A stretch of 64,000 nt of DNA from Pseudoselenomonas ruminantium (GTDB lineage: Bacteria; Bacillota; Negativicutes; Selenomonadales; Selenomonadaceae). Numbering within the stretch: the first letter of the stretch is position 1; each line of letters opens with the position of its first letter. The translations under genes were made by a program, and so were the position numbers. The notes beneath the pieces are model-generated. The model did not search any database, was not told where the DNA came from, and saw nothing but the letters and a program-made list of their open reading frames with translations. Location of the stretch: NCBI GenBank assembly GCA_902780915.1, contig CACZHK010000002.1:62001-126000 (forward strand), read 5' to 3'. Below, piece after piece: positions 58,908 through 59,304 of the stretch.

Positions 58908-58930
58908 AGCCCGGCCTTTTGAGCCGGGCT
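58908..58930 (-). terminator. terminator between hyfI and the small peptide gene
   Basis: AGCCCGGC / GCCGGGCT hairpin. On the minus strand it is followed by TTTTCTATTTT, so it best fits the end of the small hydrophobic peptide transcript. On the plus strand it can still act as the end of the hyf operon. Confidence 0.75.
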
Positions 58931-58964
58931 GCCTGTGGGTTCGTTACTCCCTCAGGCGGGGATA

Positions 58965-59063
58965 CTAGTCGCGGGAATTTTGTCGCTCGTCAAGCCACTT
59001 GCAAATGTAGTGTGCTACAATGCTTGCAGCTATCGAGAGCAGTAGGTTAAGTAGGATTAACAC
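58965..59063 (-). CDS. 32-residue hydrophobic peptide, probable type I toxin
   Basis: GTG at 59063 lies eight bases after AAAGGAGG on the minus strand; the frame ends in TAG at 58965. The product opens with MLILLNLLLSIAASIVAHYI, a single transmembrane helix, then a charged tail with KWLDERQ. This hydrophobic-helix, Trp-Leu-Asp, charged-tail layout resembles Fst/Ldr-like membrane toxins. Its mRNA start region (codons 3-7) contains a 14-nt block complementary to the divergent short RNA described below. Too short for usual gene calling. Toxic activity is inferred from layout. Confidence 0.65.
   Translation of the reverse strand: MLILLNLLLSIAASIVAHYICKWLDERQNSRD
59044..59057 (+). repeat. direct repeat, copy 1 (peptide-gene start region)
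   Basis: AGGTTAAGTAGGAT, identical over 14 bases to 59161-59174 and flanked by different bases on both sides. This copy lies inside the peptide gene just after its start codon, where it appears as the complement in the mRNA. Confidence 0.9.
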
Positions 59064-59104
59064 GAACTCCACCTCCTTTCGGCGGCGGTCCCGCAACGGA
59101 ATAT

Positions 59105-59133
59105 ATTCTAGCAGAATGTTGCCTTTCTGACAA
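59105..59133 (-). promoter_or_regulatory. promoter of the small hydrophobic peptide gene
   Basis: On the minus strand TTGTCA (59133-59128) and TAGAAT (59110-59105) with a 17-base spacer. It overlaps the opposite-strand promoter at 59119-59147, so the two promoters may compete. Confidence 0.65.
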
Positions 59134-59147
59134 ATAAATGCTATAAT
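59119..59147 (+). promoter_or_regulatory. promoter of the short antisense-type RNA
   Basis: TTGCCT 59119-59124, 17-base spacer, consensus TATAAT 59142-59147. The strong -10 suggests that this RNA is made at a higher rate than the toxin mRNA, as needed for an antitoxin. Confidence 0.7.
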
Positions 59148-59153
59148 TCAAAT

Positions 59154-59222
59154 ATGCAAGAGGTTAAGTAGGATATTGCATGGACAAGGCCTCCCGGAGT
59201 CGTTAACCGGGGGGTCGTTTTC
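59154..59222 (+). ncRNA. short RNA, probable trans-pairing antitoxin of the hydrophobic peptide gene
   Basis: Starts about seven bases after TATAAT and ends with the hairpin CCTCCCGG / CCGGGGGG (59190-59214) followed by TCGTTTTC, giving about 69 nt. It has no ribosome-binding site or convincing open frame. Bases 59161-59174, AGGTTAAGTAGGAT, are the exact complement of bases in codons 3-7 of the peptide mRNA. Pairing there would block translation initiation. The two RNAs come from different DNA segments, so it acts in trans although encoded side by side. Confidence 0.65.
59161..59174 (+). repeat. direct repeat, copy 2 (short RNA)
   Basis: The second exact copy of AGGTTAAGTAGGAT, placed near the 5' end of the short RNA, where it would be single-stranded and free to pair. 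Confidence 0.9.
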
Positions 59223-59264
59223 GTGTGTGCGGCTGATATAAGCCTGAAAACACATAGAAATATG

Positions 59265-59304
59265 AAAAGGGGCTGTTGCGTAACACTACGTGCAACAGCC
59301 CCTT
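59265..59304 (-). terminator. terminator of deoD
   Basis: GGGGCTGTTGC (59269-59279) pairs with GCAACAGCCCC (59292-59302). On the minus strand it is followed by TTTTCAT. Confidence 0.85.

Follow-up and report, generated by a model that had tools for sequence, protein, structure and literature searches.

A probable Fst/par-like type I toxin-antitoxin module with divergent genes in a Selenomonadaceae genome

RESULTS

Organization of the locus between hyfI and deoD

The DNA analyzed, hereafter the window, is a 64-kb stretch (64,000 nucleotides) of a Selenomonadaceae genome (G000). Between hyfI and deoD, beside a hydrogenase operon, the window contains a gene for a short hydrophobic peptide on the minus strand and, on the plus strand, the putative gene of a small untranslated RNA, which we call the antitoxin RNA. 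The features of the locus are as follows:

58908..58930, minus strand: terminator of the peptide mRNA, from the sequence
58932..58956, minus strand: hairpin in the 3' UTR of the peptide mRNA, with a 9-nt loop, AGUAACGAA, from folding; the loop matches the antitoxin terminator loop
58946-58941, minus strand: UAACGA in the AGUAACGAA loop of the peptide-mRNA hairpin, complementary to UCGUUA
58965..59063, minus strand: peptide gene of 32 codons, from GTG at 59063 to TAG (ORF MLILLNLLLSIAASIVAHYICKWLDERQNSRD), with paralogs in its own genome and relatives in Bacillota
59044..59057, plus strand: repeat copy 1, AGGTTAAGTAGGAT, the target site in codons 3-7 of the peptide mRNA, exact match
59069..59088, minus strand: predicted 5' hairpin CCGCC...GGUGG burying the Shine-Dalgarno, from folding
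59072..59078, minus strand: Shine-Dalgarno AAGGAGG of the peptide gene, from the sequence
59105..59133, minus strand: peptide-gene promoter TTGTCA-17-TAGAAT, sigma-70-like, with TG before the -10
59119..59147, plus strand: antitoxin-RNA promoter TTGCCT-17-TATAAT, sigma-70-like, with TG before the -10
59154..59223, plus strand: predicted antitoxin RNA of ~70 nt, its start and end derived from promoter and terminator
59161..59174, plus strand: repeat copy 2, AGGTTAAGTAGGAT, in the 16-nt loop of the 5' hairpin of the antitoxin RNA, exact match and folding
59188..59222, plus strand: antitoxin terminator hairpin of 10 bp, with a 9-nt loop, AGUCGUUAA, and a U run, from folding
59200..59205, plus strand: putative contact sequence UCGUUA, located in the loop of the antitoxin terminator and complementary to UAACGA

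The peptide, MLILLNLLLSIAASIVAHYICKWLDERQNSRD, consists of a single hydrophobic helix followed by KWLDERQNSRD. The Shine-Dalgarno of its gene is strong; across 136 loci, folding gave a predicted pairing of the Shine-Dalgarno of 0.81 vs 0.66 with shuffled leaders. The antitoxin RNA is predicted to fold into a 5' hairpin, presenting the repeat in its 16-nt loop, followed by the 10-bp terminator. Read on the plus strand, the terminator at 58908..58930 may serve the hyf transcript as well. The interval that separates the antitoxin RNA from the end of deoD contains a palindromic hairpin (GGGGCTGTTGCGTAACACTACGTGCAACAGCCCC, 59269-59302), present in one copy in the genome, which is probably the deoD terminator.

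The 1.2 kb around the locus contains just two sigma-70-like promoters, both with a 17-bp spacer and placed back to back (59105-59147). About 1.0 such promoters are expected by chance in 1.2 kb, and the promoter pair alone is weak evidence. The antitoxin RNA and the peptide mRNA share no DNA, with ~55 bp between their predicted starts; thus, all the pairing between them depends on the repeats.

The two repeat copies are identical, and no other place in the 64 kb matches AGGTTAAGTAGGAT within two mismatches. Shuffled sequences contained on average 0.16 matches, and none of the 100 shuffles contained two. By itself, the 14-bp repeat duplex has a computed energy of about -22 kcal/mol. A previous sequence-only reading of the window had described the 32-codon gene, the overlapping promoters with 17-bp spacers, a ~69-nt terminator-ended RNA, and an exact 14-nt repeat (59044-59057 and 59161-59174) that makes this RNA complementary to codons 3-7 of the peptide mRNA. 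The gene, the promoters, and their coordinates were found as described, the RNA is present by prediction (~70 nt, 59154-59223), the repeat is unique in the 64 kb and above chance, and its position places the complementarity on codons 3-7.

Spread of the peptide family

The genome that contains the window carries about 10 paralogs of the peptide (10 by profile). A 29-sequence profile matched 98/151 sampled Selenomonadaceae genomes and 57/200 genomes sampled from the class, other families included. A wider Bacillota set was obtained with an exact degenerate HYICKWLD pattern, and is biased toward that motif; it comprises at least 117 stretches, from Lachnospiraceae, Oscillospiraceae, Veillonella, Anaerococcus, Peptoniphilus, Enterococcus, Streptococcus, and others. 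Family members also occur in 453 Enterococcus plasmid records, many of them conjugative; almost all the listed rows have no annotated gene, although the plasmid gene table is incomplete, and one record that annotates the member calls it a hypothetical protein.

Some members were observed in particular contexts. The plasmid example AP026574.1 156713-156832 (L284) encodes an Fst-like relative, MKYLFDFVFAIKPFAEVTAHYICKWLD...; the plasmid member is often found in 2-3 places per record, and in one record AbrB/RelE-type genes adjoin it. Family members with 52-58% identity to a Roseburia-type query were also seen in three small phages from a rodent host (PQ006100.1, PQ006183.1, and PQ006166.1; bajarodino viruses of 7-8.6 kb); in one case, the annotated gene at this place is that of a DNA-binding protein. 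In the window genome, the paralog L002 (G000:C79:15593-15649) has no start region or ribosome-binding site and begins mid-helix; it is probably a decayed toxin gene.

A locus-specific repeat in two layouts

The start regions of 138 different genes of Selenomonadaceae, each having a ribosome-binding site, were compared with 850 bp of their own flanks or with the flanks of other loci, using a score threshold of at least 13 and gapped scoring, which takes in loci with small bulges (L003 and L005). The sequence-only reading had proposed to search related genomes for the peptide together with its linked repeat: at this threshold, 92% of the 138 genes carry a start-region repeat in their own flanks, vs 6% in swapped flanks. 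The repeat sequence is specific to the locus, and one copy always falls within the gene, at its start region.

The position of the other copy is bimodal. It lies ~100-160 nt upstream in 41/138 genes (divergent RNA, main distance ~120 nt) and ~140-220 nt downstream in 74/138 (convergent RNA, main distance ~170 nt); 12/138 have it elsewhere, several of these being tandem arrays matching a neighbour unit, and 11/138 have no detectable repeat. Tandem arrays of 2-3 modules, spaced by ~340-400 bp, were seen at L123 (G108:C148), L114 (G150:C3), L127 (G094:C28), and L120 (G147:C16), where the best repeat match falls in the neighbouring unit. In the divergent loci, promoter-like sites precede the peptide gene in 85% of cases (14% in shuffled sequences) and the antitoxin copy in 88% (12% shuffled), and a stable 3' hairpin follows the antitoxin copy; in the convergent loci, the promoter-like site before the antitoxin copy is present in 69% vs 5%.

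In the wider Bacillota set, 82/100 loci were convergent, judged by repeat position among the matches listed. Eight scored as divergent: seven are Selenomonadaceae-type records (Selenomonas, Quinella, and Selenomonadales/Veillonellaceae rumen genomes) and one was spurious on inspection. Candidate divergent loci outside Selenomonadaceae (L164, L223, L244, and L271) were judged to be due to chance, having no antitoxin-like promoter and terminator or no proper gene. Among the loci surveyed, the divergent geometry was found only in Selenomonadaceae. As a positive control, the same script scored 28/30 curated Fst loci as convergent and 0/30 as divergent. L206, a chromosomal-contig copy related to the Enterococcus plasmid member, also scores as convergent.

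Both layouts coexist in 11 of the 62 sampled genomes, including the window genome. On the toxin tree, obtained from 30-residue sequences, the layout changes 16 times, vs 33 with shuffled labels; this says only that the layout is inherited, and that it switched more than once or that the tree is poorly resolved. The sequence-only reading had presented the locus as a probable new pair: the toxin-antitoxin logic is upheld by the comparative sequence evidence, whereas the locus does not stand alone as a new pair, being a divergent member of a large family in which the convergent, par-like form is the commoner.

A putative second contact site in two hairpin loops

A second matching site, absent from the previous reading, is TCGTTA at 58941-58946 and 59200-59205, in the loops of two hairpins. 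In the window, the mRNA-side contact loop belongs to a separate hairpin ahead of the terminator. Complementary loops are conserved across divergent loci: among the 28 in which both loops were automatically readable, 61% show a loop complementarity of at least 6 nt, vs 4% when the loops are swapped between loci. The loop sequences vary by locus (e.g., TAGCTA, TGAACA, TAGTGA, and TGACTA), and the partner loop varies in step. For some divergent loci the test gave no contact, partly because the fold chose another hairpin.

Relation to known type I systems

The resemblance of the peptide to Fst, suggested by the sequence-only reading, is supported by the profile-profile comparison: the family profile matched the curated Fst alignment with 96.5% probability and a score of 40.6, whereas none of 200 column-shuffled versions scored above 16.1. 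The alignments and the profile match show the hydrophobic helix, the conserved tryptophan, and the charged C-terminus of Fst/par. Common descent of the family and Fst would be the simpler reading of these sequences, with convergence of short helices as the alternative. The Fst motif is P/D/S/TxxxG, and its P and G are essential in Fst-pAD1 (PMC7472228). The window peptide has SxxxS in the helix in its place; in the family, the first site is S or T in 111/123 members, the second is G in 56, S in 34, and N in 21, and a few relatives have P.

Single family members match the NF033608, NF047374, Ldr, and Fst models weakly. The window peptide is below the curated cut-offs of NF033608 and PF13955 (Fst), and nothing in its genome is above that of NF033608. 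Its NF047374 score is 15.5 bits (cut-off 60 bits), and 16/29 family members match this profile weakly, the best at 9e-8. The Ldr model PF13940 gave weak matches in 4/29 and 6/45 relatives and none for the window peptide. The Rfam search returned no RNA family at gathering score, the PDB sequence search nothing useful, and PADLOC one weak, unrelated match.

According to Weaver, par loci are convergent, with a common bidirectional terminator and direct repeats over the start site; the first contact occurs via the terminator loops, and the Shine-Dalgarno is buried (PMC7472228). Compared with par/Fst (par-pAD1 of the Enterococcus faecalis plasmid pAD1; NF033608), the window locus has the same kind of 30-35-residue single-helix peptide with a conserved W and a charged tail, and its motif residues stand at identical distances from the W (13 and 9 residues ahead of it). 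It also has a direct-repeat pair covering the start, a Shine-Dalgarno placed, in the predicted fold, within a 5' hairpin, and complementary terminator-type loops that may form a second contact. However, its genes are divergent instead of convergent, with two terminators in place of the shared bidirectional one, the contact loops lie in separate hairpins, and the P/G of PxxxG is S/S. A canonical Fst assignment was rejected on the basis of the scores under the cut-offs and the divergent layout: judging from its sequence, the locus is a divergent variant that would work like par, not a canonical member.

The E. coli loci zorO-orzO, shoB-ohsC, and tisAB-istR are divergent type I loci with 18-21 nt of complementarity, whose RNAs do not overlap in the DNA (PMC3919570). 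The window locus is like them in its divergent genes, short complementarity, and RNAs without DNA overlap. It differs from zorO-orzO in having a second loop-loop site and a convergent sister form in the family. The sequence-only reading had equated the two logics, which holds for layout and short complementarity but not for the pairing site: the target of OrzO is the 5' leader of zorO (PMC3919570), whereas here the site lies in codons 3-7, within the beginning of the coding sequence. The type I toxins of Clostridioides difficile (NF047374) are likewise small and hydrophobic, and are present in multiple copies, each controlled by an antisense RNA; however, the genes of these pairs converge and overlap, and most of the toxins are longer (PMC6563280), whereas the window locus is divergent and its peptide is far under the NF047374 cut-off. 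Ldr-Rdl of enterobacteria (PF13940) has the same superfamily signature, W plus charged tail, but the RNA control of Ldr is hok/sok-like (PMC7472228).

The same RNA logic could instead regulate a small membrane protein that is not toxic (e.g., a membrane or stress modulator), with no toxin-antitoxin function. This is rather unlikely in view of the profile similarity to Fst toxins; moreover, the presence of relatives on hundreds of plasmids of enterococci, many of which are conjugative, and the multi-copy and tandem occurrence fit addiction modules. This alternative draws on the fact that the toxin role of the peptide is itself proposed from sequence, and that the function of chromosomal Fst/Ldr loci is largely obscure (PMC7472228).

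Covariation and mismatches between the repeat copies

A sister species of the same genus (G001) carries the 240-bp module with 89% identity, at a different chromosomal site between other genes. Insertion-sequence flanks were considered for this copy and rejected, as the flanking frames resemble by eye tatC and a radical-SAM enzyme, not transposases. In place of the two AGGTTAAGTAGGAT copies of the window, G001 has AGGTTAAGGAAGAT on the mRNA side and AGGTTGAGGAAGAT on the RNA side: two bases are altered identically on both sides, whereas at a third altered position a G-U pair results. The covariation for which the sequence-only reading had proposed to look in a related genome is therefore present, as two coupled changes plus one G-U. 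The stem of the antitoxin terminator is altered with compensation as well, from CCTCCCGG/CCGGGGGG to CCTCTCGG/CCGAGAGG.

G001 also contains a solitary copy of the antitoxin RNA (L050, G001:C7:109955-110051), with a promoter, a repeat-like 5' part, CAAAGGATATTAGGATATTG, and the same GGAGTCGTTAACC terminator loop. There is no toxin beside it, and no toxin with its repeat was found in G001 within 3 mismatches. L050 would be an orphan antitoxin or a remnant, and possibly acts as an anti-addiction RNA.

The mismatches between the two copies were scored symmetrically, all alike. The ratio of G-U-compatible to incompatible transitions was 48:16 at divergent loci (p=4e-5), 73:14 at convergent loci (p=4e-11), and 29:7 in the Fst controls, the p-values being optimistic since related loci share ancestry. 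A protein-binding DNA repeat gives no cause for such an asymmetry, which thus argues against a DNA operator. A count of coupled changes (151 vs 21 expected) has the same tendency but is inflated, because the segments were chosen for similarity, and was given no weight. The repeats lie close to two overlapping promoters and could have been read as such, i.e., as regulator sites controlling both divergent promoters. This reading was rejected on the mismatch bias toward changes that an RNA duplex tolerates as G-U pairs; moreover, the repeat sequence changes by locus with one copy always inside the gene at the start region, convergent loci obey the same rule ~170 nt downstream, and a second, unrelated loop site exists, so that we regard an operator as extremely unlikely. 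A chance repeat beside a spurious short frame, conceivable given how short the repeat (14 nt) and the gene (32 codons) are, can be practically discounted in view of the absence of shuffles with two matches, the ~10 paralogs in the genome, the matches in 98/151 family genomes, and the coupled changes in the sister species.

Taken together, the cognate repeats, the coupled changes, the G-U-biased mismatches, and the second loop-loop site strongly support a type I antisense logic acting through the linked repeat.

DISCUSSION

Very probably, the locus encodes an Fst/par-like type I toxin-antitoxin module whose genes have been rearranged into a divergent geometry. From the features described above, we infer the following course of control. 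Transcription of the minus strand would yield a short mRNA that encodes the 32-residue membrane peptide with its single helix and keeps its Shine-Dalgarno in a 5' hairpin; the plus strand would yield a ~70-nt untranslated RNA, which would not overlap the mRNA and would carry two sites matching it. The first contact would likely be a kiss of 6 bp between the 9-nt loop of the antitoxin terminator and the 9-nt loop before the mRNA terminator; then, codons 3-7 of the mRNA would likely be bound by the 14-nt stretch in the 5' loop of the RNA. With the start region paired in this way, 30S loading would be blocked, and RNase III would have access to the duplex. Were the RNA lost, or its promoter quiet, the peptide would be made and would act on the cell's own membrane.

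On balance, we favour a broader picture in which a very large and mostly unannotated Fst-like branch (xSxxAGxxxHYICKWLD) spans Negativicutes, Clostridia, and enterococcal/streptococcal replicons, and in which the Selenomonadaceae lineage saw the antitoxin gene relocate across the toxin gene to its opposite flank, turning a cis overlapping pair into a non-overlapping one joined by two short co-evolving sites. An in silico search reportedly found Fst-like sequences in just a couple of Clostridia (PMC6563280), and a review names convergent promoters and a bidirectional terminator common to both genes as conserved traits of par/Fst loci (PMC7472228). Divergence per se is not new, as E. coli zor-orz, sho-ohs, and tis-istR show (PMC3919570). 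We found no report in the open-licence literature of divergence within the Fst-like family with both contact sites kept; some members may have been noticed earlier.

The related family occurs in many Negativicutes and Clostridia genomes and in over 450 plasmid records of Enterococcus, for the most part with no gene annotated. In one lineage, the two-site RNA logic is retained with the genes back to back. This makes it testable whether fast antisense control needs overlap, how specificity is kept among ~10 paralogous pairs in one cell, and how non-overlapping sRNA regulators originate. If true, the presence of both layouts in one genome would provide a natural series on antisense RNAs that escape overlap yet stay specific.
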